DNA from: a virus
Virus record (IMG/VR): IMGVR_UViG_3300025000_000994
Span: 1-61,128 of that record
Length of the DNA stretch: 61,128 nucleotides
Strand: one strand, 5' to 3'
A model generated the notes under the pieces. The model did not search any database and had not been told where the DNA came from. It saw only the letters and a program-made list of their open reading frames with translations. Position 1 is the stretch's first letter, and the number at the start of each line of letters is the position of its first letter. Shown in pieces: positions 2,110 to 60,601 of the stretch. Made by a program: the position numbers and the translations under genes.

Positions 2110-2118
2110 CCCTCTACC

Positions 2119-2253: not shown

Positions 2254-2268
2254 CCCTCTGCCTCACTT

Positions 2269-2843: not shown

Positions 2844-2878
2844 GCTACAACTCCTTCGCACTTTTTATATTTGTTGAA

Positions 2879-3933: not shown

Positions 3934-3948
3934 TTCAATCCCCTTTCT

Positions 3949-4371
3949 TCATCCTACCACTACCTTCATTGTGAGCAAATCAGCCAGTGTAACCATTTCA
4001 ATCCTGCCGTGCCGATTCTTTATCAGTAATTTATCAGGATACTTTGTTTCAACTTCTCCGGATACACGCTGCGTTTTTCTACCCTCATACCGAGTCAAGG
4101 TTATTTTGCTACCCTTTTGGAGCTTTTCAATCTGTTGTTTTGCCCGGTTTATATTTACCGCAAGGCTTATTAATTTTTTATCTTCACACATGATTTTGTT
4201 ATTAAGCTTTATGTCATCGCTTTCATCTGGTTTAACTATTCCGCGCTTTTCATTGGTATAATGCTGTATTGTACTTTTACCGCAATTGTACAATTCACCT
4301 ATTTGCACATATGTCATACCAGCTTTGCGATGAGCGGATATTTCTTCTACTTGCTCAATTGTAAGTTTCAT
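3949..4371 (-). CDS. HTH plus Veg-like barrel protein, coupled to MTase (module A)
   Basis: An N-terminal resolvase-type helix-turn-helix (YVQIGELYNCGKSTIQHY) and a C-terminal barrel resembling Veg (KITLTRYEGRKTQRVSGEVE). The preferred ATG (4371) overlaps the stop of the C5 methyltransferase as ATGA, with AGGAGG inside the methyltransferase gene. The copy at 50022-50444 is about 95 percent alike by eye and is ATGA-coupled to a different methyltransferase. It may regulate or assist methyltransferases. Confidence 0.7.
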   Translation of the reverse strand: MKLTIEQVEEISAHRKAGMTYVQIGELYNCGKSTIQHYTNEKRGIVKPDESDDIKLNNKIMCEDKKLISLAVNINRAKQQIEKLQKGSKITLTRYEGRKTQRVSGEVETKYPDKLLIKNRHGRIEMVTLADLLTMKVVVG

Positions 4372-5996
4372 TGTGCAATTACCTCCTGTTGCTGGCACAA
4401 TTCCGGTAAATTCGCTTCAACCAACGCCTTTGAGAATGGCGGCGGCACACTGTTACCGCACCTGGCTACCTGAGCAGTTTTAGGATAAGGCTTTCCCGTG
4501 AAGTCCCTGTCAATGATGTAATCCTGTGGAAATCCCTGAGCCGCATATAATTCTTTTGGCTCCAGCATTCTCATGCCGATGTCCACAATTTGATAATCCT
4601 GTCCGTGAATGGTTACTATCCCGAAGCGATCTTTGCTGGTTATGGTCCTGAGTGGTTCATTAACGTTTTGTCCAATATCATCTTTGTTGCCGTAATAACT
4701 CATGAGGAAAGTTCTGACTTCTCCCCAATGACCTGGCCCAGCAACGATTGTTGGAATAGGCTCATTCATGGATCTCCCGTCACAATGGTTATTCATTTGT
4801 AAAAGGTGGCTTGTAACGATAGCATTATGGTCTTTGCCTGTTATGGTATGTATTGGTTCTGCAGTATCAGATCCTGCGCCATCATAAAACCCGCCATAAT
4901 ACTTAGATATGAACGCCGTAACAAGGCCGTAACGGTTTGATCCATCTAATGTCATTATGGGTTCCTCAACTGATTGCCCTCTGTGTTCGGAATGTGCTGT
5001 TTCGCTGTGATATTGAATAAGCGTGGGTGAAACTAACATATGCTCTGCTTTTGATACGATTGTTGAAAGCGGATCTTTAATGTCGTGCAGCCTATCACCA
5101 CCACCGGTTTGTCCGATTTGAGATATAACCGGAGTAAAAAGATAATGTCCGTTTACTGAAGTTACGGTGCTTAACGGTTTGGATATGCTTTCTGGCTCAT
5201 TGTCAAATTTGTAATTTACAATAAACGGCTTAGGATTATTCAGTACATATTTTTCAATGCCCTTTGCAATACGCTTCATGGTGTTCTCTGCAAGTGGCTT
5301 TTTACGGTCAAATATGCTAGGACACGGTATAGACCAATCAATACACTCTGCCGCTGTCCTGTATGGCTTTAGCAATCTGAACCTTACTTCTATTCTGTCG
5401 GGGTCTCCATGTGTGGGCTCAGGCCATATAATCGGTTTACCGTCACACCTTGCAATCAGGAAAAACCTCTTGCGGCTTGTAGGCGCTCCATAATCGCACG
5501 CCCTGAGTTCCCGGTATTCAACCTTATAACCTTGCCTTTTTAGTGCTTTAACAAACAGATTGAAGGTCTCACCTTTCTTAGCTGGGTCAGGCATATTATC
5601 TACCAGTAACGGGCCCCATGTTTTAAATTCCTCAACATTTTCCAACATAATTACTCTTGGGTGAACCATTTTCGCCCACTTGACAGCTACCCATGCAAGA
5701 CCTCTAATACTCTTTTCAACTGGTTTTCCACCCTTCGCCTTAGAGAAGTGTTTGCAGTCTGGAGAAAACCAACATAGCGCCACTGGTTGGCCTTTGGTTG
5801 CTTCTACCGGATTCACTTCCCACACGTTCTCACAGTACACTTTTGTGCCGTGGTGGTTCGCCTTGTACATAGCAATGGCGGCTGGATCGTGGTTAACCGC
5901 TATGTCAATCGGTCTGCCTATTGCCAACTCAATTCCTGTGGAAGCACCGCCACCACCGGCGAAATTATCAACTATAAGTTCTTTTATACTCTTCAT
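4368..5996 (-). CDS. DNA cytosine-5 methyltransferase with repeat-rich recognition region
   Basis: Motif I is DNFAGGGGASTG, motif IV is unusual (FSPDCKHFSKAKG in place of PPCQ..S), motif VI is MLENVEEF, motif VIII SRKRFFLIAR and motif X ARCGNSVPPP. At 542 residues it exceeds typical phage enzymes. Between VIII and X lie about six degenerate repeats of the form EP-x-x-TI/V ending in a V-rich strand, such as EPISKPLSTVTS, DPLSTIVSK, EPIHTITGK and EPLRTITSK. It probably modifies phage DNA against host restriction. Specificity cannot be read from sequence. Confidence 0.88.
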   Translation of the reverse strand: MKSIKELIVDNFAGGGGASTGIELAIGRPIDIAVNHDPAAIAMYKANHHGTKVYCENVWEVNPVEATKGQPVALCWFSPDCKHFSKAKGGKPVEKSIRGLAWVAVKWAKMVHPRVIMLENVEEFKTWGPLLVDNMPDPAKKGETFNLFVKALKRQGYKVEYRELRACDYGAPTSRKRFFLIARCDGKPIIWPEPTHGDPDRIEVRFRLLKPYRTAAECIDWSIPCPSIFDRKKPLAENTMKRIAKGIEKYVLNNPKPFIVNYKFDNEPESISKPLSTVTSVNGHYLFTPVISQIGQTGGGDRLHDIKDPLSTIVSKAEHMLVSPTLIQYHSETAHSEHRGQSVEEPIMTLDGSNRYGLVTAFISKYYGGFYDGAGSDTAEPIHTITGKDHNAIVTSHLLQMNNHCDGRSMNEPIPTIVAGPGHWGEVRTFLMSYYGNKDDIGQNVNEPLRTITSKDRFGIVTIHGQDYQIVDIGMRMLEPKELYAAQGFPQDYIIDRDFTGKPYPKTAQVARCGNSVPPPFSKALVEANLPELCQQQEVIAQ

Positions 5997-6046
5997 TTCT
6001 TAAATTCCTGCCCTTCCAATACTGGTACTATTTTTATTTAAGCCCC

Positions 6047-6844
6047 TCACAATTTGTATAATCTATCAATTTCTTCGTCACTTGGTATTGATCGCTGCTC
6101 AAAATTGCCTTTTTGGGGTGTTGTATTTTGTTGTGCTTGTTTTGGCCGGTCTTTTTGAAGCAGTAATGTGTCGAACTTTTCTCGGAGCTTTTTGGCGGAT
6201 AATATATTTGATTTCCAAAAACTATCCTTTTGGCTGAATTCCATAACAACATTGATTTGTTCAAGTGTCCTTTTATCAAGCCGTGTCATTTTGTCAAACT
6301 CAGCTACCCACTTTGTTAAATCATCTGGTGTTTTTGCTCCTGGGTTATTTTGAAGCATAAGAGCTTTTAATTTTTCAGCCATCGTCATGTGTGACGATGA
6401 ATATATCTTTTCTTTATTCTTACATTCTTTAGTTCTTACATTCTTGTTAGTTGTTAGGTCTTTGTTACCCCTTTGTGACCCGTTTGTTAGTTGCTTTGTT
6501 AGGTCTTTGTCTGTCGACTGGTACAACTCCCAATTTAGAACGGTTACAAGCCTTGACTCCTTTGTTGATTCGTATGTTAGAAATTCAAGTTTTTCAAATC
6601 TAACAAAGGCAGTACGTATATTTTGTATTGAGATACCCTTACCACATTCTTTCTTAATTTTTGTAAGACTTGTAATTTTCTGTCCAGGTTTACATCTGTA
6701 CTTTTTACCCTTCCATTCCCATTCCTCTTCATCATGGTTAACCATACATAAAAGAGTAATGAGAATAGTTTTCTGTTCAGGTGTTGATAACTTCCATATT
6801 GGTTTTTCAAGGAGCACTCTGTAGAGTTTTATCCAGCCATCCAT
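6047..6844 (-). CDS. Replisome organiser / DnaD-like replication initiator (module A)
   Basis: The N-terminus MDGWIKLYRVLLEKPIW is typical of phage replisome organisers with a winged-helix domain. The C-terminus carries a helical module (KMTRLDKRTLEQINVVMEF, ILSAKKLREKFDTLLLQKDRP). Start M28 of the longest frame is used because AAAGGGTGAT lies upstream and the module B homologue begins at the same place. No replicative helicase gene is seen, so host helicase loading is inferred. Confidence 0.8.
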   Translation of the reverse strand: MDGWIKLYRVLLEKPIWKLSTPEQKTILITLLCMVNHDEEEWEWKGKKYRCKPGQKITSLTKIKKECGKGISIQNIRTAFVRFEKLEFLTYESTKESRLVTVLNWELYQSTDKDLTKQLTNGSQRGNKDLTTNKNVRTKECKNKEKIYSSSHMTMAEKLKALMLQNNPGAKTPDDLTKWVAEFDKMTRLDKRTLEQINVVMEFSQKDSFWKSNILSAKKLREKFDTLLLQKDRPKQAQQNTTPQKGNFEQRSIPSDEEIDRLYKL

Positions 6845-6982
6845 TAAATCACCCTTTACATTCAAGAAGCGAAGGCCGCCTCTTGTCGGAATCCTTTGAA
6901 CAAATATTAAGTTTTTGATTATCAAAAGATAACCTTTCTTGTTTTATATTTTTATCCCTCTGCCTTCACCGAGGGGTAAAGT

Positions 6983-7693
6983 CTACTCTTGACACACTAT
7001 AACCATCTTGCCCGTAACTGCCTGTACTTCTCTTTTAAATCTTGCAGCATTACTATTACCGGCCGACAAATGAAGCAGGTATATTTCTCTCACCTGGCTC
7101 AGATCATTCACCCTTAAAAACTCCTTCACATGGTCCAGAGAAAAATGCGAGTGTACAAGCCGTGCTCTTTGTGCTTCTGGTAAGCTTCCTTTTGAAACAT
7201 TGGCCTGTAATATATCTGCAGAATAATTACACTCAAGCATGACGTAATTCAGTCCGACAAATCGGTATTTGCAGTAATACGAATCTGTTATGAAAACCAA
7301 TTTCTCACCAGTTACTATAGATTGAATCAGGAATCCTAATGAGCCCTCGCAATCATGCTGTGTCTCAAACGGCCGGACAATAAACGTGCCAATAGTAAAT
7401 TGCTTATGTGCCTCAATAGTATGTGCCCTGTGCTCGTCCTGCACGCCTATAGCCTCAATTGTCTCCGCAGATGTGTAAACATCTATCGAATTCTTTAAGA
7501 GGTCTTTTACAGCTTTACAGTGGTCGTTGTGTGAATGGGAAACAAGGCAACCATCTATCTCTGACAATTTATAATTCAGCCCTTGCTTTATCTTTTGTAT
7601 TGAAATACCTGCTTCCAGCAGCAGAGCAGTTTTATCGTCCGATATTCTATAACAATTCCCTGCACTACTGCTGGCGTAGCTAAGTATGTTCAT
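6983..7693 (-). CDS. MBL-fold hydrolase of recombination module
   Basis: The metallo-beta-lactamase signature HxHxDH is seen as SHSHNDH, with further metal-ligand histidines near QHDCEG and LVHSHFSLDH. 236 residues. In Firmicutes phages such proteins sit directly beside RecT and are thought to act as nucleases in strand processing. Here its ATG directly follows the RecT stop. Substrate not known. Confidence 0.8.
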   Translation of the reverse strand: MNILSYASSSAGNCYRISDDKTALLLEAGISIQKIKQGLNYKLSEIDGCLVSHSHNDHCKAVKDLLKNSIDVYTSAETIEAIGVQDEHRAHTIEAHKQFTIGTFIVRPFETQHDCEGSLGFLIQSIVTGEKLVFITDSYYCKYRFVGLNYVMLECNYSADILQANVSKGSLPEAQRARLVHSHFSLDHVKEFLRVNDLSQVREIYLLHLSAGNSNAARFKREVQAVTGKMVIVCQE

Positions 7694-8632
7694 TTAGAAC
7701 CCCCGTCTTGTAGATTTATTTACTGGAGGCATATCAATGACAGCTTGTTCTTGCTTTTTTGCATCCTCTTGCTTACTGCTTGCCGGTGGTACTTCATCCT
7801 CAACTGGTGTAGACTCAACTACTGGCTCAATATCAATGATCTCAGAGTTAGCATTTGCCCCTATCTCTTCTTCTGCTTCTGCTTCCTCAATATCCGAATA
7901 GCTTTGCTTTGCATATGAGGAAAGCAAACTAGCATCGCTGGAACCGTTTATTATCGGCTTGCAAGCTTTATTTGTAACAGTTTTCTTGCACATTTCAGCA
8001 GTAAACTTGCCATGCACACTACTCCCTTTCAATTCCCCTTTGTCGTCAAATACACCCATTTTTGATTGTTTCCACGCTTGGTGAATTTCATCGAGCGTCA
8101 TTATAGTGGCTTCTTCTTTACCAGATTTATATAACACCGTACAGTAAGCAGCTACGATCTTATCTTTCTTCACGTTCTCGATTTTCTGATTATGCTTTGT
8201 AACAAATGTCTTGCCACGCAGTTTGCCATATTCAAATTCATCACCCTCGTATACAACGTCAGGCAATATATCTTCAATGTCGGGGTTTACTGCTTTGGCA
8301 ACTGCCATGGACCCGAAGTATGAGCGCTGCATCTGAAGCTTGTTGCCGTATACGATAAAGTAACATTGCTTCTTGTCGGGATTCAGTCCTTGTACTACCA
8401 TACTGAGAAGCGAATTTGCGATGCTGTCTTTCGTGCAAACTTCAAGTGCAGGTTTATAATCTTTACTTTGTACCTCCTGCAGCTGTAGCCATGCTGATTT
8501 TAAGGCGTTCTCAGGGCTGTAGTTTTCAGGGAAGTATAACTCGTGGTTGTTCTGGAACTGCTTCACCTTTGCCGCTACGATGTCTACTGTTTCCCTCTTT
8601 ACTGCGATTTGTGTGTTCTGCTTAACTTCCAT
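7694..8632 (-). CDS. recT: RecT-family single-strand annealing protein
   Basis: The RecT core is clear: LNPDKKQCYFIVYGNKLQMQ, RSYFGSMAVAK and the following strand-rich region. 312 residues with an acidic, low-complexity tail. RecT anneals complementary strands during phage recombination, normally with an exonuclease partner; the MBL protein downstream or the hook ATPase upstream may fill that place. Module B has no RecT. Confidence 0.9.
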   Translation of the reverse strand: MEVKQNTQIAVKRETVDIVAAKVKQFQNNHELYFPENYSPENALKSAWLQLQEVQSKDYKPALEVCTKDSIANSLLSMVVQGLNPDKKQCYFIVYGNKLQMQRSYFGSMAVAKAVNPDIEDILPDVVYEGDEFEYGKLRGKTFVTKHNQKIENVKKDKIVAAYCTVLYKSGKEEATIMTLDEIHQAWKQSKMGVFDDKGELKGSSVHGKFTAEMCKKTVTNKACKPIINGSSDASLLSSYAKQSYSDIEEAEAEEEIGANANSEIIDIEPVVESTPVEDEVPPASSKQEDAKKQEQAVIDMPPVNKSTRRGF

Positions 8633-8634
8633 AA

Positions 8635-8823
8635 TTATTTTGCCTCCTTATTTTTAATAGCTGTAAATATTACATTGCCGCGAAAAATCGCTTTGTGCGC
8701 CATTTGAAGCTGCCAACTTAAAAACCAGCCCTTGTGAGTAACCTTGTTGTTCCAATATACAAATTCTTGCGAAACTAACTCATCAAGGCTTTTGATTGGT
8801 TCACCTTTTGAGTATTTTTTCAA
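8635..8823 (-). CDS. Small conserved phage protein, 62 aa
   Basis: Opens MKKYSKGEPIKSLDELVSQE and is rich in Trp (VYWNNKVTHKGWFLSWQ). It sits tightly between the ATPase and recT, so a role in the recombination unit is inferred. No motif recognised. Confidence 0.65.
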   Translation of the reverse strand: MKKYSKGEPIKSLDELVSQEFVYWNNKVTHKGWFLSWQLQMAHKAIFRGNVIFTAIKNKEAK

Positions 8824-10881
8824 CTATGCCGCCTCCGTTTCAATCCTCAACACTTTATCCTTCTCGCTTACTACAAGCCTGAATAATTGTGATTTTGTCT
8901 CTGCCAGTGCGGTAACTGACTCTGCGTTATCACAAAATATAGGAGCTTCAAAATTGTAGAATTCGGAAAGAGTATTTATGATGTCAATACCTCCGTTGAT
9001 CCTGCCACCAGCATTTGCATCAGAGTAAGGTGTCCAGCAGCCGTTTGTATTGATAAGCGCCTCACAGCATTCATTAAGAGCTCCGTTGATCTGAACATCG
9101 AATAACTTAAAGCGAACATACTTGAATCGGCTATTGATCTTGCTGTCGAGCATTTTGACCTTTGTGCGGATAAATTCCTCTGTAATGAATAGCTCCCCTT
9201 CAAGCCGCTCGTATTCCTTGGCAAGCTTCTTTTCATCTGCTTTGAGTTCTTCAATTCTGTTCTTCATTTTTTCACACTGATCAACCAAATTTATTTTTGC
9301 CTGAAGTTCTCTAACCTTCGCAGAAATGTCCGCGATATCACTTTGAATTTTACTAATTCTTTCGTTGTTGCCATTATGCAATTCAGCAATTGCAGCCTTA
9401 ACCTGTGCAGCTTCAGCAGATTTTAATTTATACTCTGGCGTTTCAGAAACGTCTATGAAGCTGGCTTGTGTGTCTAAAATTCTCTGACGGACAGCATTAA
9501 GAGATACTTCTACATTAGCCGACCTTTTTACAAGTTCCGCGTATTCAGCATTCAGGGTAACAAGAGAAGCCTTTTTAATTTCAAGGGTAGCTCTTGTATC
9601 CTTGCCGGTAGCTTTGATTTTTTCAAGCCTGTTGGACTTGTCCATGTTAAATGCTTCAAGCGCTATTTGCTTTGCTGCCTCATATTCCTGCTGCGCTATT
9701 TCTCTAACAGAATCAAGCCTTTCTTGCGGGATATCTTGTCCACAAGTAGGGCATACAGAATCTTGGTTGAGAACAAATTCTCTATATGAAAATGTTTCTG
9801 CCTCTGTCTTGTCATACTTTTCGTAAAGGTTCTCTATTTCAGTTTCAAGAGTTTTTATCTGCCGTTCACAAGCACTTATTTCATCCTGTTTTAAACTGAC
9901 CTTACCTGAAACAGTTCTGTAAGCCAAACTGGATTCAACCTCTTGCTTGGTTAACTCGCTCAAAGCATTGGTTTTCCTCTGTTCATTGGCGTTTTTCATT
10001 CCAATAAGCTCTGAGTTAATCTCTGCTAGCTTCTTATTTTTCTCTGCAATTTCGCCACCTGATGTTATCCTGGTGGACTCCTGCCTTAATACTTCCTGCT
10101 CTTTCAATAGTCCATCAATTTCACCCTGCACCACTGAAACAACAATTCCTGTGGTATCCGGCATCATATTTTTGTTTTCGGTGATCTTGGCAGGTATCTT
10201 TTCGAGTTCATCATTGATTTTGCTCTTGGCAGCCGCTATGATCTTCCTCTGGTCATCTATGCTATGAGTTCCAAGGATAGCTGATAAACCTTTCAACTTG
10301 GAATTGCCTTCGATAACTTCTGAATCAGCAATATCTCCGCACACTTGTAAAAGCATTTTGCGTCTATCTGTCCAATGAAGCTGCTCGTTGAAATATAGAG
10401 GATTAGTCAGAAGTTTAAAAGCCTTTTCGTCTGCTATGTCCTGTATACGCTTTTTGTATTCACCTTCACTTTTAGGAACACCATCAACAAAGTAATCTGT
10501 TGTATTTCCTGCAAATGCTTGTTCTGAAGTGCCTCTTTTTTTTGTCCATCTTTCATAAAACACCTTTTTCAAAGCTAGTGTGCTACCACCTAAATCAAGC
10601 ACAGCCTCAACCTCTGTTTCAATCCCGTGAATGACTTCCTGTGTCTCGGGATCTATCGGTTTAATGCCGAAGTCAGAACGATTTAAACTGTCCTTGCCGT
10701 TCAGGAGCCAATTGAATGAATCTGCAATGGTTGTTTTGCCGGTTGCATTATCGCCAAAGATATTGATGTTATACTTGCCTTTCATCGGAACAGCAACACC
10801 CGCCTGGACCCAAGCATCTGCAGTAATAACCAATTCTTTGATCCCTTTGAAATTCTTAATTACCAGTTTGTTTATCCTCAT
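8824..10881 (-). CDS. SMC/Rad50-like ATPase with zinc hook
   Basis: 685 residues from the ATG at 10881 (MRINKLVIKNFKG), which follows GGAGG; an upstream in-frame ATG at 10986 would overlap the previous gene. The N-terminus has Walker A GDNATGKTT. Two long coiled coils flank a Rad50-type hook CPTCGQ, and the C-terminal half holds the Walker B region (PIFCDNAESV). Such phage ATPases work with nucleases in end processing. The counterpart at 54311-55741 is shorter and lacks the hook. Confidence 0.85.
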   Translation of the reverse strand: MRINKLVIKNFKGIKELVITADAWVQAGVAVPMKGKYNINIFGDNATGKTTIADSFNWLLNGKDSLNRSDFGIKPIDPETQEVIHGIETEVEAVLDLGGSTLALKKVFYERWTKKRGTSEQAFAGNTTDYFVDGVPKSEGEYKKRIQDIADEKAFKLLTNPLYFNEQLHWTDRRKMLLQVCGDIADSEVIEGNSKLKGLSAILGTHSIDDQRKIIAAAKSKINDELEKIPAKITENKNMMPDTTGIVVSVVQGEIDGLLKEQEVLRQESTRITSGGEIAEKNKKLAEINSELIGMKNANEQRKTNALSELTKQEVESSLAYRTVSGKVSLKQDEISACERQIKTLETEIENLYEKYDKTEAETFSYREFVLNQDSVCPTCGQDIPQERLDSVREIAQQEYEAAKQIALEAFNMDKSNRLEKIKATGKDTRATLEIKKASLVTLNAEYAELVKRSANVEVSLNAVRQRILDTQASFIDVSETPEYKLKSAEAAQVKAAIAELHNGNNERISKIQSDIADISAKVRELQAKINLVDQCEKMKNRIEELKADEKKLAKEYERLEGELFITEEFIRTKVKMLDSKINSRFKYVRFKLFDVQINGALNECCEALINTNGCWTPYSDANAGGRINGGIDIINTLSEFYNFEAPIFCDNAESVTALAETKSQLFRLVVSEKDKVLRIETEAA

Positions 10882-10927
10882 TTGTCTTTCGACCTCCCAA
10901 TTATATTTATCTTTCGGCCCATCATAG

Positions 10928-11272
10928 CTATATTTCCAAGCTATCAACGATCTCCCTTGTGGATTCAATTGATTGCAGAAATTCATCTACAGCGCGTTTC
11001 AATATTAGCCTTTTTACTCCTTCTGGCATTTCTTTCTCAACCTTTGTATCAGCAACGAATACCTGCCAGCAATCAGTTCTTAAAGCACCGGTTGCCCATT
11101 TAACAAACGCTGCCCTATCAATATCGATGCCCGCTCCATTACCTTCTGGACAATATCGGTTCACGATATTTGCAAAGGCGTGAGCTGCGTCCTTAATTTC
11201 TTTTATACATTCCTTCTGTGCCTTCTGCAGTAACACTTCCTCAACCCTACCTGTGGTGATCTTCTCACTCAT
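10928..11272 (-). CDS. Hypothetical phage protein, 114 aa
   Basis: Helical protein opening MSEKITTGRVEEVLLQKAQKE. Its ATG overlaps the stop of the 48-residue gene upstream (ATGA). No motif recognised. Position beside the hook ATPase suggests a role in the replication-recombination operon. Confidence 0.65.
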   Translation of the reverse strand: MSEKITTGRVEEVLLQKAQKECIKEIKDAAHAFANIVNRYCPEGNGAGIDIDRAAFVKWATGALRTDCWQVFVADTKVEKEMPEGVKRLILKRAVDEFLQSIESTREIVDSLEI

Positions 11273-11415
11273 ACTTTTTCATCCAATCTCTCCCGCAGGA
11301 GATCCCTTTCCTGCTCATTCAGCATTACTTTGTACTTCTCGCCGTTCTGCCCGACAAAGGTGATCCCGTCATACTCGATAACAATGTCGTGGATGAGCAT
11401 ATCAATTGTAAGCAT
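11269..11415 (-). CDS. Small hypothetical protein, 48 aa
   Basis: Opens MLTIDMLIHDIVIEYDG with AAGGCGG upstream, and ends with an ATGA overlap into the next gene. Strand-rich first half and charged helical end (NEQERDLLRERLDEKV). Function unknown. Confidence 0.6.
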   Translation of the reverse strand: MLTIDMLIHDIVIEYDGITFVGQNGEKYKVMLNEQERDLLRERLDEKV

Positions 11416-11430
11416 ATAGCACCGCCTTTC

Positions 11431-12168
11431 TCAGCTAAAAGATGCTTCTGGTTCTGCTTCTGGTTGAATCTCTGCTTCGTCTGACCAATTATCAATTTCA
11501 ATATCAGAATAATTTTGAGAAACTTTGATTAGATAAATTTGAAATCCGTTTACATGCCTTAAGGAACTGATATTACATTCCTCGTTAATTTGAAGCTTCC
11601 ATTTTTCGTTTTTCCATTTGCGGAGTTTTGCTTCAAAATTCATGTTCTCATCTTTCTCACACTCGAAGAAGATGCTTGCTTCTGAATAACTGCTCCATGA
11701 TTTACCTTCGTGTTCCTTTACCTCGTACGTTACTTCGACCGTTTCATATGACGGGCTATCATCAGTGCAAACCTCTAAATCACTTGTATCAACATTTTCA
11801 GCCACATGTTTACAGTATTCTTCAAACATATCAGACACTTTCAATATTTTAGGAATTTCAATATCGGTCATAAACTCCTTGAAGTTTTCAAGAATCTTTT
11901 TGTTGTCTAAGGCTGTATTCTTTAGTATTTCTGTCAACACACAGTCCAGTTTGACTATGTATTTTGAATAATCATAACCGGATAACTGCTTAATCATTAC
12001 TTCCTTAATGCTCTTCTCTATAACCTTTGTTACGTCACCATAGCTTCCTAAAAGGCTTTCAAGTGATTTGTTTATACCTTTTTCAAGGTTCTCAGCTACT
12101 AGCTTTTGAATTATGCCATCCTCCAGTTTGGAGGTAATAACATCTTTAATTGATTGTTCAATATTCAT
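11431..12168 (-). CDS. Hypothetical phage protein, 245 aa
   Basis: A helical N-terminal half (MNIEQSIKDVITSKLEDGII, IEKSIKEVMIKQL) and a strand-rich, acidic C-terminal half with a Pro-Glu-Ala tail. It occupies the place that 59414-60013 may hold in module B; both have repeated IxEVIxxxL-like helices but clear homology cannot be shown by eye. Function unknown. Confidence 0.6.
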   Translation of the reverse strand: MNIEQSIKDVITSKLEDGIIQKLVAENLEKGINKSLESLLGSYGDVTKVIEKSIKEVMIKQLSGYDYSKYIVKLDCVLTEILKNTALDNKKILENFKEFMTDIEIPKILKVSDMFEEYCKHVAENVDTSDLEVCTDDSPSYETVEVTYEVKEHEGKSWSSYSEASIFFECEKDENMNFEAKLRKWKNEKWKLQINEECNISSLRHVNGFQIYLIKVSQNYSDIEIDNWSDEAEIQPEAEPEASFS

Positions 12169-12221
12169 AATCTCTATCCCCCTTCTTTGTTGGCGGGCAA
12201 GGCCTACCCCAACCCGCCATA

Positions 12222-12293
12222 TTGTAATTCCCGTTAAATGTGCTATACTGTAATTGAATATTTACTTGGTCGCTTACGAGCGGCCTTTTTCTA
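12222..12293 (+). ncRNA. Ultrashort promoter-terminator unit U1
   Basis: Plus strand, opposite the early operon. TTGTAA (12222-12227), 16-bp spacer, TATACT (12244-12249) with an extended TG, then a 7-bp hairpin GGTCGCT/AGCGGCC (12268-12285) and T5. A transcript would be only about 35-40 nt. The T-run ends just before the stop codon of the converging gene. Two more units share the layout TGTGnTATAnT, about 25 nt, hairpin, TTTTTCT (13468-13513 and 55976-56029). Confidence 0.45.
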
Positions 12294-13007
12294 TTACGAG
12301 ATAATCTTTACGTTACAGCCTTCCAACTTCTCAGCCAGATAAGCCTTTACATTCTGCATAGCATAGATTTTCCAGATACCGCCGTCAGCTTCGAAAATAG
12401 CCGCTGAAGGTCCGGTTTTCATCCTGAACACAAACTTGCTTTCAGGCTGATCTACTTCGGCAAATGTACGGAACGGGCAAAGGATAACTGGATTAGGGAC
12501 AACTATTTCAGCAACTGTTGCAATTCCAGCCTTTGCGACAACCTTCTGTGAAACGCCATCATCACTTGTGTTCTGTACATTATCCTCCTTGATGTTGCCA
12601 ACAACCTTTAACACGGCTGCAGAGTGTTCATTCTGGAGGAAACAAGCCTGCAACATTATGTTAAAACTCTCAATATCCATGAATCTTTCGTATGTGATCT
12701 GTGGTGTCGATGCTTCACAGGAAATGTAGTTATCCCTGTTCATATCAGCCCTGAGCTCTGAATATGCCAGTACTTTTGTAGGAGAAACAACGTGTACTAC
12801 CATGGGATCAGTGATTTTATCAACATTGTTCTTTATGTAGTCAACGAGCCCTGTAAGAGTTTTAATGTTTATAGCCTGAGCATTTGGCTTTGGATCAAAC
12901 ACAGGCTTGATGTAATTCAAAGGTTCTGTAGAATAATTACTATCGCCAACCTTAATGACCTCTGTTTTCTTTAGTGAAACAAGATATTGTAATGCCTTCT
13001 CAATCAA
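12294..13007 (-). CDS. Conserved early phage protein, 237 aa
   Basis: TTG start at 13007 with GGAGG 8 bases upstream. Strand-rich protein with the order KTLTGLVDYIKNN, VVHVVSPTKV, CPFRTFAEVDQPESKFVFR and a C-terminal helix. The organisation resembles the YfdQ/DUF2303 group of phage proteins, but I cannot confirm it. It precedes the replication-terminator-like gene in the operon, so an early DNA-linked role is inferred. Confidence 0.65.
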   Translation of the reverse strand: MIEKALQYLVSLKKTEVIKVGDSNYSTEPLNYIKPVFDPKPNAQAINIKTLTGLVDYIKNNVDKITDPMVVHVVSPTKVLAYSELRADMNRDNYISCEASTPQITYERFMDIESFNIMLQACFLQNEHSAAVLKVVGNIKEDNVQNTSDDGVSQKVVAKAGIATVAEIVVPNPVILCPFRTFAEVDQPESKFVFRMKTGPSAAIFEADGGIWKIYAMQNVKAYLAEKLEGCNVKIIS

Positions 13008-13036
13008 CTTGGATTCCTCCGCTTTCTACCGGATTA

Positions 13037-13429
13037 TTACCGGTTGATATTTACTATCTTTCTGCCAGCCTTGTTGTCTGTAGCTTCCAAAATCTCGCCT
13101 GTTTCTTTATCAACTTGAATTGCCGTCTGCCCAGGTATAGTATGCTTTGCATATTCCTCAGCAATAACTTGACCGTTGTTGTCCTTTCCAAGAAATAGCT
13201 GTGTTAAAACTGGCGTGTATGGACTTACGGAGCTCTTTGCTTTGAGTCCTAATTGCACGCTTTCTCTGGTATCATCCATTGACTTGAATTCCAGTTCCAG
13301 AGTGACCTTTCTAGCCTTCTTCCAATCTGTGTTTTTGTCGAGAATGTTTTTGAGTACATTTTCGATTTCAACATCTGCCCTCTCCATGAGAGCTCCCTTT
13401 GCTACGCTTGCTATATTAAGCTTGTCCAT
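13037..13429 (-). CDS. Phage 'replication terminator protein' family
   Basis: The ATG at 13429 (MDKLNIASVAKGALMER) is behind AGGGAGG; the longer frame has no ribosome site. The pattern ENVLKNILDKNTDWKKARKVTLELEF, SPYTPVLTQLFLGKDNNG matches a common Firmicutes phage family that databases label replication terminator protein, although direct evidence for that function is thin. 130 residues. Confidence 0.7.
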   Translation of the reverse strand: MDKLNIASVAKGALMERADVEIENVLKNILDKNTDWKKARKVTLELEFKSMDDTRESVQLGLKAKSSVSPYTPVLTQLFLGKDNNGQVIAEEYAKHTIPGQTAIQVDKETGEILEATDNKAGRKIVNINR

Positions 13430-13467
13430 GTGTGTTTTACCTCCTTCCCTTAATAATTGGCATGTGA

Positions 13468-13513
13468 TATAATTGATTTGGACATTTTGTTTCAGCCTCT
13501 TTGAGAGGCTTTT
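13468..13513 (+). ncRNA. Ultrashort promoter-terminator unit U2
   Basis: Plus strand. Extended -10 TGTGATATAAT (TATAAT at 13468-13473) without a strong -35, then a hairpin AGCCTCT/AGAGGCT around 13494-13510 followed by T5. Predicted RNA about 36 nt, ending just before the stop of the AbrB-like gene. Same layout as U1 and U3. Confidence 0.45.
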
Positions 13514-13517
13514 TCTT

Positions 13518-13769
13518 TTACTCTCCTGCATCTTTCAAGCACTTATGGCATACTTTTATACCATACTTTACTAATCCCTCAACCAGATCATCAGATTCCT
13601 TGCACACTCCGCATGTTGGTTGATACTTTTTGAGAATGATTTCTCCATTTTCGCCCATGAAGATTTCCAATGGAGTACCCTCATCAATTGCCTGTGTCGT
13701 GCAAATTTCCTGTGGAATAACCAATCTGTGGAGGCTATCCACCTTTCTTACAATGCCAGTAGCTTTCAT
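13518..13769 (-). CDS. AbrB/SpoVT-type regulator with zinc ribbon
   Basis: MKATGIVRKVDSLHRLVIPQEI is the AbrB swapped-hairpin signature, and the C-terminus adds a zinc ribbon (CGVCKESDD, VCHKCLKDAGE). The ATG at 13769 is chosen because GAGGAG lies 8 bases upstream. 83 residues. Probably a transcription regulator that forms dimers or tetramers on AT-rich DNA. Confidence 0.8.
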   Translation of the reverse strand: MKATGIVRKVDSLHRLVIPQEICTTQAIDEGTPLEIFMGENGEIILKKYQPTCGVCKESDDLVEGLVKYGIKVCHKCLKDAGE

Positions 13770-13794
13770 TTCTTCAATCTCCTCTCCCTTCAAA

Positions 13795-14013
13795 TTAAAA
13801 AATATTGCCTTTCCAGTTATACTTCTTTGATATCTCAGCGAGCCTTATCAGCCGCTTTTGAACCCTTAACGTGTGTAGATATAAGTGCTTTACCTTGAAC
13901 CGCCTTACCCTACTGCCTTTCATATCGCGGATCATCCAACCGAATGTAAAGGATATGAAGCAAAGTAAAAGAATGAGTGAAACTGCCTGTAACGGACTTG
14001 CCCCTGTATCCAT
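13795..14013 (-). CDS. Small membrane protein, 72 aa
   Basis: One hydrophobic segment (AVSLILLLCFISFTFGWMI) is followed by a basic tail (KGSRVRRFKVKH), so the tail should face the cytosol. Function unknown. Confidence 0.6.
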   Translation of the reverse strand: MDTGASPLQAVSLILLLCFISFTFGWMIRDMKGSRVRRFKVKHLYLHTLRVQKRLIRLAEISKKYNWKGNIF

Positions 14014-14027
14014 ATAACCCCTTCTTT

Positions 14028-14282
14028 CTACGCGTACATCTTGACAGGATGCCGCAGGTTGTAGTAGTACACTGCCCTGCGTTTCGGCTTGCTGAGCTTG
14101 CTCAGTTTGGTTGCTTTGCGGCGTTTCTCGATGATAGCAACCTTACGCGGATCCTTAGGATTGCGGATACCCGGAATGATTTTGCATCCTTCAAACTTGC
14201 TGGTGTGAATTGGATTGGTGTATCTGTTCCCGCCAGCTGACATTGCGAAGATTGCAGCGATTAAACTTTTTAATTTGTCCAT
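14028..14282 (-). CDS. Basic phage protein behind the leader cassette, 84 aa
   Basis: Opens MDKLKSLIAAIFAMSAGGNRYTNPI, with a very basic second half (KRRKATKLSKLSKPKRR). Its ribosome site lies in AATAAATTTATAGGAGG, the same sequence that precedes 57055-57261 and 59414-60013. The first 20 residues resemble those of 57055-57261 (LLASLFGAL, YTPVE). Nucleic-acid binding is a guess from charge. Confidence 0.6.
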   Translation of the reverse strand: MDKLKSLIAAIFAMSAGGNRYTNPIHTSKFEGCKIIPGIRNPKDPRKVAIIEKRRKATKLSKLSKPKRRAVYYYNLRHPVKMYA

Positions 14283-14501
14283 AACGACCTCCTATAAATT
14301 TATTTTGTTTCGGAGAGGACAGTCGCGACCTGCCTCTCCACCATTTGTACATACTGCCTAGGACTTAACACCCGTTTTTATATTGGACATTTCTGCCCTG
14401 CTCTTATGGGTTTTGGTGGAAGATATGAGATTGACTACTCACTGTCTCCCAGATAAAGCGGGTCGATTCACCGCCCGCTTTGGTTTGCACAGTCACCGTA
14501 T
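14283..14501 (-). promoter_or_regulatory. Conserved leader cassette A, 3' part
   Basis: Untranslated sequence between the microprotein and the basic protein, matched at 60014-60270. It holds a strong hairpin GGAGAGG/CCTCTCC with inner CAG/CTG and the palindromic loop TCGCGA (14312-14339). Further elements are a CTC-TAT/ATA-GAG hairpin (14400-14430) and a compensating 8-bp stem AAAGCGGG/CCCGCTTT (14456-14483). A 12-codon GTG frame (MSSQSHIFHQNP) is also conserved in copy B. Likely a structured 5' leader. Confidence 0.5.
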
Positions 14502-14642
14502 TCAAACAAATCCAGTAGGATATCCGATTACCACCGACCTGCGGCGTGGACTATCGACTGTACCGCTTGCATAACAGACTGTGCAATGTCTTATCAAACT
14601 GTTCAGCCAATCGTACCAATCGAATCCGAATATTGCCTCCAT
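14502..14642 (-). CDS. Microprotein IFG-W-GYPxGFV, copy A (46 aa)
   Basis: Starts MEAIFGFDWYDWLN and ends VVIGYPTGFV. GGAGG lies 6 bases before the ATG. The homologue at 60271-60408 (MDGIFGYSWF to NVVGYPSGFV) has the same length to within one residue, and many differences fall at third codon positions (ATA/ATT, TAT/TAC, CCT/CCA, TTT/TTC). This indicates selection on the protein. No known family recognised. Confidence 0.65.
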   Translation of the reverse strand: MEAIFGFDWYDWLNSLIRHCTVCYASGTVDSPRRRSVVIGYPTGFV

Positions 14643-14790
14643 AGGCTTCCTCCGACACTTTTATTCTTTAGCCCGGTACATATCGACCTGTACCGAATAA
14701 TAGTGGGCTAGCTAGTTGGCTTTATGGATGAACCCGCCAGAACCGCTTAGAAACTTTACAAATGAGTGGCATCACCTACCTTTGTGGATA
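14643..14790 (-). promoter_or_regulatory. Leader cassette A, 5' part, with 40-base repeat
   Basis: On the minus strand: AAAGGTAGGTGATG (ribosome site plus ATG of a 16-codon frame, MPLICKVSKRFWRVHP), the 40-base repeat (14726-14765), a TAGCCC/GGGCTA stem enclosing a CGGTACA/TGTACCG hairpin, then a conserved stretch (GAATAAAAGTGTCGGAGG) ending in the microprotein ribosome site. Shared with 57262-57412 and 60409-60601. Confidence 0.5.
14726..14765. repeat. 40-base dispersed repeat, copy 1 of 3
   Basis: Begins GGATGAACCCGCCAGAACCG and ends TTTACAAATGA on the plus strand. Copies at 57310-57349 (identical by eye) and 60496-60535 (single changes). All lie in leaders of minus-strand genes. Confidence 0.75.
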
Positions 14791-14804
14791 TAATTTGCAG
14801 ATAA

Positions 14805-14966
14805 TTATTGCTCAATATTTTCTGAAATGGTATGAATGTACGTTTGTTCGTCAATTTCCAATTCCACAATATCGGTTTCGCTGTTATATCCGACTACTCT
14901 GCCAACATGCCCAGCACAAGCGCCTCCCTTTATTTCTGCCATGAGGTTAACGAAAACCTTTTTCAC
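14805..14966 (-). CDS. Small barrel-like protein, 53 aa
   Basis: GTG start with AAGGGGAG upstream. Opens KKVFVNLMAEIKGGACAGHVG; GHVGRVVGYNSETDIVELEI looks like a KOW/SH3-type strand pair. It follows the 44-residue gene by a few bases. No counterpart seen in module B. Confidence 0.55.
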   Translation of the reverse strand: MKKVFVNLMAEIKGGACAGHVGRVVGYNSETDIVELEIDEQTYIHTISENIEQ

Positions 14967-14970
14967 GTTC

Positions 14971-15105
14971 TCACTCCCCTTCCATCCCTATATCCACCAC
15001 CCGCCCATCCCGGACGGTAAAATATGTGCCTGTTAGCCTGTACCAGTCTGCGAACCAGTGGATGTCGGTTTGCTCATTGAGGATGATTGATTTTTCAAGT
15101 GGCAT
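14971..15105 (-). CDS. Small conserved protein MPLEKS, copy A (44 aa)
   Basis: MPLEKSIILNEQTDIHWFAD to VDIGMEGE. The copy at 57544-57678 differs at only a few residues and keeps the upstream AGGAGGCTCAC-type leader in part. Two near-identical copies in collinear modules support a real gene. Function unknown. Confidence 0.65.
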   Translation of the reverse strand: MPLEKSIILNEQTDIHWFADWYRLTGTYFTVRDGRVVDIGMEGE

Positions 15106-15134
15106 GTGAGCCTCCTTTGTGCGGATTCTCCTTC

Positions 15135-15335
15135 TTATCCGCAATTACAATTATCACCTCTGGCCGTGATTGTACCCTTTGCTACCCTGGAATCTAAAAA
15201 TCTACCAGTATCAGTACCCTTTACACATTCAAAGCCATTTGCACCGCAAACAAGGTATCGGCAGCATTCATTGCCCTGTCCTATTTTGCATACGGTTTTT
15301 ACTTTGTCTATTTGTACCTTCTTTGTGTTTTCCAC
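15135..15335 (-). CDS. Cys-rich small protein, copy A (66 aa)
   Basis: GTG start 6 bases after GAGGGC. Opens MENTKKVQIDKV, with cysteines at KTVCKIG, NECCRYLVCG, FECVKG and GDNCNC, suggesting a metal site or disulphides. The second copy starts at the right edge (60962-61128). The two share exactly 99 bases; upstream of that the N-termini are unrelated. Function unknown. Confidence 0.65.
   Translation of the reverse strand: MENTKKVQIDKVKTVCKIGQGNECCRYLVCGANGFECVKGTDTGRFLDSRVAKGTITARGDNCNCG
15203..15301. repeat. Exact 99-base repeat, copy 1
   Basis: Identical to 61030-61128. The first flanking base on each side differs (15202 C against 61029 T; 15302 C against base 1, A, if the ends are joined). 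It lies inside the Cys-rich genes and is the point at which the contig ends. Confidence 0.85.
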
Positions 15336-15962: not shown

Positions 15963-16712
15963 TTAGGCTGATAGAGCCTTTTGCTTGTCCAAAAACTTAT
16001 TTACAAAGTAGATTTGCCCTTTGCCGGTGATTAGAGTTGTTTTCGTGATTTTGCTTTCACCATCAGAACTAATACGAGTACCTTCTTTAATCTCCATAAC
16101 CTTCAGCTCCATAGACTTCTGCGTGGGCATGTTGTAGCTTCTTCCTCTTTCCTTGATTGCGTACTCGTTATCACGAAGCCATTCCCACAATCTGATTTCA
16201 CCAATTTCAACGCCATTCTTTTTGAGTATCTTCGCTAAATCTGCAACGAGAATTGATGTGCTAGAAGCCGTCACGGAATCGGCAAATAATTCTTTTGGCT
16301 TCATTTCTTCAACTCTTGATTCAAGTTGAAATACCGTTGATTCAAGAGAAAGGATTTTCCTGTCTGCCATTTTGATTGCTCTTGCCATGACAGCCTCAGG
16401 AGTGTTCCATTGTCTTTCAAGTTCGATGAAATATTGACGGGCTTGCTTGCCTTTTTCTGTCCGCTGAATCATACAGAGTTCTTTTGCCATTTCAACGGTG
16501 ATTTGGTGATCTTGTTTGTTCTGTCCTCCGTGACTTTCGCTTTCCAAATTTGGAAGGCAAGTTTGGAAGTCGATGTTTTCATTAAATCCATACTCTGTCA
16601 TCCTGTTGAACCATGTTGTATAGTTACTTTCTACTTCTAAAAATTCATGAAGTGTTCTTGCTGATACTGTCTGTCTGTCGTTGTCGTAGTTAATGGGGAT
16701 AAGATTATTCAT
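15963..16712 (-). CDS. AntA/AntB-type antirepressor with KilAC-like C-terminus
   Basis: 249 residues. The N-terminus has the AntA/AntB pattern (VSARTLHEFLEVESNYTTW, NRMTEYGFNENIDF, ITVEMAKELCMIQRTEKGKQARQYFIELE). A linker leads to a KilA-C-type module (VADLAKILKKNGVEIGEIRLWEWLR, KGQIYFVNKFL). Antirepressors of this kind inactivate phage repressors. A second protein with a related C-terminus is at 17879-18580. Confidence 0.82.
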   Translation of the reverse strand: MNNLIPINYDNDRQTVSARTLHEFLEVESNYTTWFNRMTEYGFNENIDFQTCLPNLESESHGGQNKQDHQITVEMAKELCMIQRTEKGKQARQYFIELERQWNTPEAVMARAIKMADRKILSLESTVFQLESRVEEMKPKELFADSVTASSTSILVADLAKILKKNGVEIGEIRLWEWLRDNEYAIKERGRSYNMPTQKSMELKVMEIKEGTRISSDGESKITKTTLITGKGQIYFVNKFLDKQKALSA

Positions 16713-17878: not shown

Positions 17879-18580
17879 TTAGGCTGATTTTTTCAGCTTT
17901 TCAATTATATAAATCTGACCTTTAGGCGTGACTTTATAAGTTCTGTAAGTCTCGCTACCATATGGTGTGCTATATGTGCCTTGCCTCGTTTCAAACCATC
18001 CAGCATCAAAAGCTTTTTGATAGGGCTCATTCTTATCGCTCACAATTCCCCATTCTCTTAGCTTCTGCCATAAACGTTTTTCGCCGATGGCAACATTCTG
18101 CTTGCTTGCCAATTTTGCTACTTCACGGACTAACAAACTGTCGTTTGAAGCTATGCAGGTTTCGGCGAATAACACAAGAGGCTTCTGTTGTTCAAGTTGT
18201 TGAGCCTTATGCGTGTTCTCTGTCTGCAGATGTTCTTTTTCCTCTTCTGCTGCTACCAGCGCCAGCAATGCTTCTTTATAATTGGTAGGCAACTGCTTGT
18301 CCTGTTCCATTGCTAGTTCAATTAACTTTGCTCTGACAACTGCATCATACCTGGCAGCTAATTGCAGGACACCTTCTTTGGTGAGGGTGTAGCAAGGCAT
18401 TTCTTTATTCTGTTCCGTAGTGTATGAGGATAACGCAAATTTGCGTTCACCGGAAATTCCGCCTGCCTCCAGCTTTTCGGATTCATCCCTAATGTCTCTC
18501 ATAATATCCGCGTGACGTTTCCCTGTTACTTCTGCGATTTCCATTGATGTCATTTTGGTGATAATGGTTAGATTTTTCAT
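17879..18580 (-). CDS. Rha-family protein with KilAC-like C-terminus
   Basis: N-terminus of Rha type (TSMEIAEVTGKRHADIMRDI, PCYTLTKEGVLQLAARYDA); C-terminal ANT/KilAC module (SLLVREVAKLASKQNVAIGEKRLWQKLREWGI, KGQIYIIEKL). ATG at 18580 follows AGGAGG by 8. It is the first early gene after cro and is preceded by an operator copy at 18663-18674, so the CI/Cro pair probably regulates it. Probable antirepressor. Confidence 0.8.
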   Translation of the reverse strand: MKNLTIITKMTSMEIAEVTGKRHADIMRDIRDESEKLEAGGISGERKFALSSYTTEQNKEMPCYTLTKEGVLQLAARYDAVVRAKLIELAMEQDKQLPTNYKEALLALVAAEEEKEHLQTENTHKAQQLEQQKPLVLFAETCIASNDSLLVREVAKLASKQNVAIGEKRLWQKLREWGIVSDKNEPYQKAFDAGWFETRQGTYSTPYGSETYRTYKVTPKGQIYIIEKLKKSA

Positions 18581-18662
18581 TAGCTTGTCCTCCTGCATAA
18601 ATCATTTTAAAACCTTGGTATATTTCCGACTTTCACCGGATATACTTATACTGGGGAAGTGC

Positions 18663-19264: not shown

Positions 19265-20449
19265 ATGGCACGGCCTAAAAAACAGAACGACAAGCCATTA
19301 ACACGTAATCCTAATGGAATGGGCAACATTTATAAAAGACCTGATGGCAGGTATGAATGGAAGCAGATGGTTGATGGTGAGGTGCGGTACGAATCAGATA
19401 TAAATCTGTCTGAACTAAGAAGGAAAATAAAGAAACAAACAAACATAGGCATTAATAAGGATAAAACAAAATTATTTGAATGGATAGCCTACTGGCTTGA
19501 AAACTATGTTCAGCCTTATAAAAAACCTTCCACGTACAATAACTACAAATTCGCTTACGAAAAGTACATCAAAAAATATATGAGAAATGTCCAGCTAAGG
19601 CATGTTACAAAGATGGATGTTCAAAAAATGATAACAGACCTAATTAATGATAAGTATTCACCGTCATTAATAAAGAATGTTCGCAAGGCTTTAAGTGCTG
19701 CATTTATTTCAGCAAATGAGGAGGAACAGATCGTTGACTTCAACCCAACCAGAGACACTAAACTGCCCAAAGGCAGAACCCCTACCCGAAAAACTTTGAA
19801 ATTAGAGGAGCTAATTGCAGTTATTAATAAGTTTAAGACATCAAGGTGGTTATATGCTATCTTATTTATGCTTGCTACAGGATTGAGAAGGGGCGAACTA
19901 TTAGCCGTAAGATGGTCTGATATTGACTTTAAAGAAAAGCGTATCGGCATAGAAAACAATCAAACTCAATACGGGATTGACACGCCAAAAGACAATGAAT
20001 ACCACTATGTGCCGTTAACAGATCACGCCGTGGCCTATTTGTCTGGATGGAAAAACCAGCTTCAAAAGGAATACAACCCAGCCATATATCACAAAGTTGA
20101 TACTATTTTTGTATCAAAAAGTGGACAACCCTTACGACCTTCAAGTTTTAATAACACACTGGCAAAGCGCAAATTTGATTTTAAAGTAACGCCACACATG
20201 TTCCGGCATACCTTCGTATATCTCTCAAAGGGCAAAATAAGCCTGAGTGAATTGCAGGAAGCATTAGGACACGACCAGTCAACTACTACATTGGATATAT
20301 ACGGTCTTATGCTCGCTGATACTGTTGCTGTTGCTGATAAAATTGAAATAGCATACAAAGAATTGGATGAAGCTATGAAGGAAAATAAAAAGAAAAAGCA
20401 GGAAAGTAATGTTGTAGATTTCACACAAAGAAGATTAGCAAAACAATAA
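19265..20449 (+). CDS. int: Tyrosine integrase
   Basis: 394 residues with an arm-binding N-terminus (GMGNIYKRPDGRYEWK), a core-binding SAM-like domain and a catalytic domain. Active-site residues: R208 (TGLRRGEL), K242, H311 and R314 (HMFRHTF), H336 (LGHD), Y346 (LDIYG). GAGGAGG is inside the repressor 3' end, so the two are coupled. The attachment region follows at once. Confidence 0.93.
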   Translation: MARPKKQNDKPLTRNPNGMGNIYKRPDGRYEWKQMVDGEVRYESDINLSELRRKIKKQTNIGINKDKTKLFEWIAYWLENYVQPYKKPSTYNNYKFAYEKYIKKYMRNVQLRHVTKMDVQKMITDLINDKYSPSLIKNVRKALSAAFISANEEEQIVDFNPTRDTKLPKGRTPTRKTLKLEELIAVINKFKTSRWLYAILFMLATGLRRGELLAVRWSDIDFKEKRIGIENNQTQYGIDTPKDNEYHYVPLTDHAVAYLSGWKNQLQKEYNPAIYHKVDTIFVSKSGQPLRPSSFNNTLAKRKFDFKVTPHMFRHTFVYLSKGKISLSELQEALGHDQSTTTLDIYGLMLADTVAVADKIEIAYKELDEAMKENKKKKQESNVVDFTQRRLAKQ

Positions 20450-57261: not shown

Positions 57262-57412
57262 CTTAACCCCTCCTATAAATTTATTAGCCTTTCGGCTGGT
57301 AGCGGGCTTGGATGAACCCGCCAGAACCGCTTAGAAACTTTACAAATGAAATGTAATTATCAGCCGGCTTTATTTGTCCGGCGCATGGGCATCACCTACC
57401 TTTCTGTGGAAA
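57262..57412 (-). promoter_or_regulatory. Leader cassette C, short form
   Basis: Minus strand: AAAGGTAGGTGATG with a 10-codon frame (MPMRRTNKAG, 57360-57392) that ends in a GCCGG/CCGGC hairpin, then the 40-base repeat, an AGCC-GAAA-GGCT hairpin and the shared ribosome site. It lacks the microprotein. Confidence 0.5.
57310..57349. repeat. 40-base dispersed repeat, copy 2 of 3
   Basis: Identical by eye to 14726-14765. Confidence 0.75.
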
Positions 57413-60013: not shown

Positions 60014-60270
60014 CCTAACCTCCCTATAAATTTATTTAGTTTCGGAGAGGACAGTCGCGACCTGCCTCTCCATTCCGTTGTACATACTGCCCAGGACTTA
60101 ATACCCTTTTTTATTCGGCTTTCGCCTGCTCTTATGGGTTTTGGTGGAAGATATGAGATTGGTTACTCACACTCTCCCAGATAAAGCGGGCGAACCTCAT
60201 TGATTAGCCCGCTTGTGTTATATTTAAATTTGTTGCTAGGCCGTATCGTGCGCCTCTCCGATGGAGTACG
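60014..60270 (-). promoter_or_regulatory. Conserved leader cassette B, 3' part
   Basis: Matches 14283-14501. The GGAGAGG/CCTCTCC hairpin with loop TCGCGA (60044-60071) is unchanged. The variable stem is AAGCGGGC/GCCCGCTT, differing in sequence but still paired. The 12-codon GTG frame (MSNQSHIFHQNP) is kept. Confidence 0.5.
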
Positions 60271-60408
60271 TTAGACGAATCCGCTTGGGTATCCGACTAC
60301 ATTTGAACGCTGTACTGGCTTGGTAAAGTAGTGGCATTGAACAAACTCAAACGGTTTAATGTAACACTTCAACGCCTCAAACCAGCTGTACCCGAAAATT
60401 CCATCCAT
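60271..60408 (-). CDS. Microprotein IFG-W-GYPxGFV, copy B (45 aa)
   Basis: MDGIFGYSWFEALKCYIKPF to NVVGYPSGFV. GGAGG 7 bases before the ATG. Homologous to 14502-14642, conserved at both ends and variable in the middle. Not part of any family I know. Confidence 0.65.
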   Translation of the reverse strand: MDGIFGYSWFEALKCYIKPFEFVQCHYFTKPVQRSNVVGYPSGFV

Positions 60409-60601
60409 CCCTTTACCTCCGACACTTTTATTCTTTAGCTCAGCACGACCGACCGCGCGCTTTAATTATCTGCGAGCTTCACAAGTGGGCTTTATGGATA
60501 AACCCGCCAGAACCGCTTAGAAACTTTACAAATAAAAAATAAAATAATAATTATCAGCCGGCTTTATTTGTCCGGCGCATGGACATCACCTACCTTTCAA
60601 G
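60409..60601 (-). promoter_or_regulatory. Leader cassette B, 5' part
   Basis: AAAGGTAGGTGATG with a 10-codon frame (MSMRRTNKAG, 60554-60586) closing in a GCCGG/CCGGC hairpin, then the 40-base repeat, an AGCTC/GAGCT stem and the conserved GAATAAAAGTGTCGGAGG before the microprotein. Confidence 0.5.
60496..60535. repeat. 40-base dispersed repeat, copy 3 of 3
   Basis: Matches copies 1 and 2 except for single changes near its left end and at its last bases. Confidence 0.75.

Follow-up and report, generated by a model that had tools for sequence, protein, structure and literature searches.

Do two very short open reading frames in an uncultured viral contig encode a genuine protein, and what purpose would the conserved leader around them serve? 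We addressed this question in a viral DNA stretch of 61,128 nucleotides (IMG/VR record IMGVR_UViG_3300025000_000994), hereafter the window, for which a first-pass annotation had proposed a new microprotein family of 45 to 46 codons. Both open reading frames are present as described and lie on the minus strand, a point the annotation left unsaid; translations of the plus strand at both coordinates are unrelated. The first copy (W1, 14502..14642) encodes 46 amino acids, MEAIFGFDW...VVIGYPTGFV (read from 14642 to 14502: MEAIFGFDWYDWLNSLIRHCTVCYASGTVDSPRRRSVVIGYPTGFV, then stop), and the second (W2, 60271..60408) encodes 45 amino acids, MDGIFGYSW...VVGYPSGFV (read from 60408 to 60271: MDGIFGYSWFEALKCYIKPFEFVQCHYFTKPVQRSNVVGYPSGFV, then stop). 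The two proteins are 38% identical and have in common the IFGxxW start and GYPxGFV end noted previously. The Shine-Dalgarno GGAGG, reported to stand 6-7 bases before the ATG, is located 6 bases upstream in W1 (14649..14653, minus) and 7 bases upstream in W2 (60416..60420, minus). The two copies also have the same conserved leader, as had been stated, with 77% mean column identity over ~700 columns and some blocks above 90%. In W1, the GGAGG is inside an invariant 24-nt motif, GCTAAAGAATAAAAGTGTCGGAGG, which occurs exactly at both W1 and W2 (0 expected by chance, and never found in shuffles); the same leader motif lies upstream of the micro-ORF in six copies. The remark that their shortness would hide these genes from usual gene callers is doubtful, as the usual length floor of gene callers is 90 nt and 46 codons exceed it.

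The homologue search suggested by the annotation was carried out by scanning viral contigs with a DNA motif and with a protein pattern. It revealed six further copies in related uncultured phage contigs (L005, L007, L012, L013, L017, and L020), most of the sequences coming from few metagenomes with neighbouring numbers and being not fully independent. A profile search of twelve phage records found eight copies in seven records, none with stops, and the homologues of W1 at the seven other places are all open. The lengths of W1, W2, and the six homologues in the above order are 46, 45, 46, 46, 43, 43, 45, and 33 amino acids, L020 being without ~12 residues between the conserved ends. Frame-breaking changes were sought in all homologues and found in none (8/8), the length differences amounting to whole codons. 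The invariant columns, in W1 numbering, are I4, G6, W9, L13, V38, G40, Y41, G44, and F45. A looser DNA pattern for GYPxGFV followed by a stop recovered four of the homologues and two likely chance matches; since it added no true members, the family is narrow in this collection. The two discarded matches, L025 and L026, have no such leader nearby. No match to the microprotein was found in Pfam, NCBIfam, PHROGs, or PDB sequences, and no relative was found in named phages, plasmids, or species genomes. Structure prediction gave a pLDDT of 53, and therefore no fold is claimed. Taken at the sequence level, the in-frame homologues and the lack of a match to described families support the proposal that these open reading frames form a real new microprotein family of 33-46 amino acids in a group of uncultured temperate phages.

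The claim that changes cluster at third codon positions holds clearly for close relatives and only weakly for the window pair. Differences between W1 and W2 are distributed as 17/20/29 over codon positions 1/2/3, a weak bias (chi-square, P ~0.17), whereas the near pairs W1-L005 and W2-L012 pooled give 6/7/23 (P=0.0005). In the W1-L007, W2-L012, and L012-L013 pairs, random placement would give more amino-acid changes than are observed; for W1-L005 alone the depletion relative to random placement was not significant. The dN/dS ratio, named as a check in the annotation, is below 1 in near pairs. The other forward frames contain stops in nearly all copies. Coding selection on the micro-ORF is well supported by these comparisons, and its translation is very likely.

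Although the genes are indeed embedded in a conserved leader, the first-pass annotation missed that the leader RNA is structured and modular, that a tRNA-like element lies 3' of the micro-ORF, and that the leader also occurs without the micro-ORF. The leader 5' end at W1 (14718..14765, minus) carries AUUUGUAAAGUUUCUAAGCGGUUCUGGCGGGUUCAUCCAUAAAGCC with a small hairpin and is found in three copies in the window; its counterpart at W2 (60485..60533, minus) belongs to the same repeat family. With stems picked by eye and aligned by hand, as for all pairing counts given here, this hairpin is paired in 35/35 cells among seven related sequences. Just 5' of W1, another RNA hairpin (14670..14709, minus) has an AGCCC/GGGCU closing stem, an asymmetric internal loop, an inner stem, and a loop with GGUCGRU, and the matching hairpin at W2 (60437..60478, minus) has the compensated pairs AGCUC/GAGCU. 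The inner stem pairs in 28/30 cells of six sequences, with double changes at 5/5 positions, and 0/2000 shuffles were as good. On the 3' side of the micro-ORF, a GC hairpin (AAGCGGG...CCCGCUU at 14456..14480 for W1; AAGCGGGC...GCCCGCUU at 60184..60214 for W2; both minus) is paired in 68/70 cells across ten sequences. A hairpin GGAGAGG...CCUCUCC (14312..14339, minus) lies 5' of the downstream gene 14028-14282, for which AAUAAAUUUAUAGGAGG (14288..14304, minus) is the ribosome site. A matching ribosome site (60020..60036, minus) lies 5' of the downstream gene 59414-60013, and sites of this type number three in the window versus 0.5 expected.

Rfam searches over the window leader gave no known RNA at the gathering score, and the W1 leader gave none up to E=5. 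Group I intron, C4, T-box, GOLLD, and ROOL had no Rfam match, and ARAGORN -m reported no tmRNA; the tmRNA and intron readings were rejected on these grounds. We also rejected a pseudoknot between the internal loop of the upstream hairpin and the invariant GAAUAAAAGU, which fits W1 by eye and is not conserved in W2, L005, and L007. Within the micro-ORF, TTGCACAGTC is perfectly complementary to the post-stop GACTGTGCAA in W1 (14486-14582, minus) and L005; the complementarity is near-perfect in L007 and absent from the other copies.

The tRNA-like element 3' of the micro-ORF takes very different forms at one corresponding place. In W1 (14414..14451, minus) and W2 (60142..60179, minus) it is a bare 38-nt minihelix with CCACCA and no anticodon arm; the W1 form, with a 7-bp acceptor-like stem, a T-arm-like hairpin, and CCACCA at its 3' end, folds at -13.1 kcal/mol (z -2.9). 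The L007 element is full-size (75 nt) and scores 47.7 bits to the Rfam tRNA model (cut-off 29), with an anticodon loop of 9 nt instead of seven bases. It alone passes this cut-off, W1, W2, L005, L012, L013, L017, and L020 being below. Default ARAGORN reported no tRNA-like element, and the L020 and L021 elements are called only if a long anticodon-arm insert is allowed. Just 5' of AGCCGAAAGGC, L020 and L021 show a tRNA-Leu-like top with ~80-100 nt of extra hairpins replacing the anticodon arm. The element is without a D arm in L013, has a single hairpin as its lower half in L005 and L017, and is of long-variable-arm size in L012. Depending on the copy, the D and anticodon parts are complete, enlarged, reduced, or absent, and the 3' ends read CCA, CA, or CUA. 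In hand-chosen stems, the acceptor pairs are kept in 60/60 cells of ten sequences and the T-arm pairs in 38/40 cells, both with double changes. Directly 3' of the element, AGCCGAAAGGC (AGCCGCAAGGC in L007) and then the downstream ribosome site follow in L005, L007, L012, L013, L017, L020, L021, and L027; in W1 and W2, ~110 extra bases with other hairpins separate the element from that site. Hairpins composed of an acceptor stem, T-stem, and T-loop suffice as RNase P substrates, and the natural RNAs known to be cut by this enzyme include phage RNAs and polycistronic mRNAs (PMC11143913). The apparent architecture of our elements, an acceptor stem stacked on a T-arm-like hairpin with a CCA-like end, resembles that of RNase P minihelix substrates. 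A kept acceptor and T-arm with a variable remainder is the pattern that selection for RNase P-type processing would leave.

Leader variants point to a modular organization. After the tRNA-like element, the usual order is AGCCGAAAGGCU and then the ribosome site of a variable gene. A third leader copy in the window (W3, 57269..57349, minus) contains the 5' hairpin, ACCA, the AGCCGAAAGGCU hairpin, and a ribosome site, without the micro-ORF and tRNA-like block. The same arrangement is found in L016 and L019, where AGCCGAAAGGCU and the ribosome site follow the ACCA end of the 5' hairpin without interruption. These junctions indicate that the block of upstream hairpin, micro-ORF, GC hairpin, and tRNA-like element is present or absent there as a unit. 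In L021 and L027 the tRNA-like element occurs without the micro-ORF; it precedes the downstream ribosome site whether or not a micro-ORF is present. The AGCYGNRAGGCNAATAAAT motif has one site each in the window and ten related records, and none in the reversed control; as most of those records were found via this motif, only the number of one per record is informative. L018 was rejected as a leader relative, as it has nothing in common with the leader beyond the short AGCCGAAAGGC hairpin and ribosome site, which precede a likely recombinase gene. In L013, the GC hairpin and the tRNA-like element are separated by an HNH_3 endonuclease gene (L013:10372-10860, minus), the 3' end of which overlaps the start of the element. 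A possible ORF of 8-11 codons ending in (R/C)(R/P)(T/A)NKAG-stop was observed in the window (57360-57392 and 60554-60586, minus) and in L005, L013, L016, and L017. It has its own ribosome site, AGGTAGGTG, and overlaps a hairpin with compensated stem changes in L017; in W1 and L019, the start of this ORF reads MPLICKVSKR instead.

On the minus strand of the window, the leader follows antirepressor genes (15963-16712 and 17879-18598) and precedes recombination and replication genes (SbcC-like, RecT-like, exonuclease, and DnaD-like). In relatives, an antirepressor or Rha gene is found on the upstream side and ERF, SSB, or SbcC-like genes on the downstream side, and the genes directly after the leader vary between phages. 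The leader block fills an accessory slot flanked by antirepressor genes on one side and recombination genes on the other. Among named phages, those of Staphylococcus, Bacillus, Streptococcus, and Butyrivibrio have the nearest terminases and antirepressors, and on this basis the hosts probably belong to the Bacillota. The two copies do lie in one contig, as first described, but they belong to two related early regions, which the annotation also missed: window positions 1-15301 and 48790-61128 share blocks of 76-92% identity at a spacing of ~46 kb, which places W1 in one region and W2 and W3 in the other. An integrase gene is located at 19265-20449. The two regions reflect tandem prophages or a chimeric contig, and the copies correspond to each other across the regions instead of having been duplicated within one phage.

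Because the acceptor and T-arm are kept and minihelices suffice for RNase P, we favor an early accessory, trans-acting microprotein encoded on an mRNA in which RNase P-type processing signals serve as punctuation, a reading that we regard as plausible, if somewhat short of probable. Both the mRNA processing and the function of the microprotein are inferred from comparative data. Translation of the micro-ORF would begin soon after induction or infection, driven by a strong ribosome site of its own. The tRNA-like element would serve as a signal for host RNase P and 3'-end tRNA enzymes, whose cuts in the polycistronic message would leave a downstream message beginning at a protective hairpin, namely AGCCGAAAGGCU in most relatives and another one in W1 and W2. 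These two copies fit this step less well owing to the ~110 more bases before their ribosome site. The microprotein itself may work in trans rather than as a cis-acting leader peptide: as a small accessory (moron-type) factor, it would bind a partner via its conserved ends. Its gene is one unit of the modular mRNA leader.

The explanation that ranks next is precisely such a cis-acting leader peptide, translated mainly to control the downstream gene by attenuation or by stalling at the GYPSGFV-stop, with the hairpins as attenuators. In favor of this reading, no strong ORF precedes the micro-ORF in the structured leader, conservation of the protein is highest at its C-terminus, with the stop directly after it and the GC hairpin next, and the pairing of TTGCACAGTC with GACTGTGCAA would join the ORF with post-stop bases in W1, L005, and L007. 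A short ORF in a structured leader and a conserved C-terminus are likewise known from TnaC/ErmCL-type arrest and attenuator peptides. However, the TTGCACAGTC/GACTGTGCAA pairing, strong in this one subgroup, is absent from the other five copies, and attenuation by this route was rejected. In contrast to the TnaC/ErmCL type, the N-terminal IFGxxW is also conserved, the spacing between the conserved ends is variable (with L020 at the short extreme), and no shared downstream alternative structure is present here. Moreover, the downstream gene varies, and the leader exists without the micro-ORF in W3, L016, and L019. With its key prediction of a shared alternative pairing borne out only in a single subgroup, we consider the leader peptide doubtful. 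Far less probable is that the ORF is an untranslated by-product of the conserved structured RNA. The surrounding structure and the weak third-position bias of the window copies taken alone would agree with a by-product, but the whole-codon length differences in 8/8 copies, the depletion of amino-acid changes and third-position enrichment in near pairs, the good ribosome site before the ATG, and the stops in other forward frames of nearly all copies all argue for translation.

Two other explanations concern the RNA around the micro-ORF. Phage tRNA genes often decay, and the tRNA-like elements could be such relics without present function, the leader structure being unrelated to processing; only L007 passes the tRNA model, and the anticodon arms depart from the normal form, with a 9-nt loop in L007 and long inserts in L020 and L021. 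Decay should affect all arms alike, yet the acceptor (60/60) and T-stems (38/40) stay paired by compensatory changes while the lower half is free, and the exact place before the AGCC hairpin is kept in eight contigs, making this account unlikely. Somewhat less likely again, the whole segment that begins with the upstream hairpin and ends with the 3' end of the tRNA-like element may move together as one mobile cassette, possibly with the help of the HNH endonuclease. The leaders of W3, L016, and L019, in which ...UACCA runs directly into AGCCGAAAGGCU without the block, and the HNH_3 endonuclease inside the block in L013 are consistent with mobility. The same picture, however, is expected from ordinary recombination between leaders, and no target-site duplication or defined ends are shown.

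Several known systems offer points of comparison. Like the small phage and microbiome proteins that comparative genomics has brought into smORF catalogues (e.g., GMSC, PMC11364881), the micro-ORF is short and conserved, with its own ribosome site and coding selection, but it has no match among PHROGs, Pfam, or NCBIfam families. The L007 element resembles tRNA (RF00005) in its acceptor, D, and T arms and its score of 47.7 bits; it differs in the 9-nt anticodon loop, and the D and anticodon arms of other copies are absent or replaced. In P1/P7, a tRNA-like structure lies near an antirepressor gene. The non-tRNA substrates of RNase P include phage M3 RNA, the C4 antisense RNA of P1/P7, and polycistronic operon mRNAs (PMC11143913), which similarly have a tRNA-like acceptor/T-arm structure inside a phage or operon transcript. 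The leader has no Rfam match to any family of this kind, and its putative element stands between a micro-ORF and the ribosome site that serves a variable gene. GOLLD and ROOL RNAs often occur near tRNAs. These are structured phage RNAs as well (PMC12286853), whereas the leader modules described here are much smaller, contain a conserved ORF, and have no Rfam match.

By itself, the microprotein adds another small gene to those known from phages, but its support is unusually strong and current family libraries do not detect it. The leader presents, at a constant position, a set of natural tRNA mimics that range from near-complete to a bare minihelix and in which just the parts recognized by RNase P are kept. 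The tRNA-like pieces hint that this group of phages uses tRNA-processing enzymes to cut its messages. We tentatively suggest, as a possibility only, a leader class in which tRNA mimics reduced to acceptor stem, T-arm, and CCA serve as punctuation: host tRNA enzymes would cut at them and so separate interchangeable accessory genes, one of which is the new family of early microproteins. If cleavage is confirmed, this would be a bacterial-virus counterpart of mitochondrial tRNA punctuation and would provide a natural collection for testing which tRNA parts processing enzymes need.
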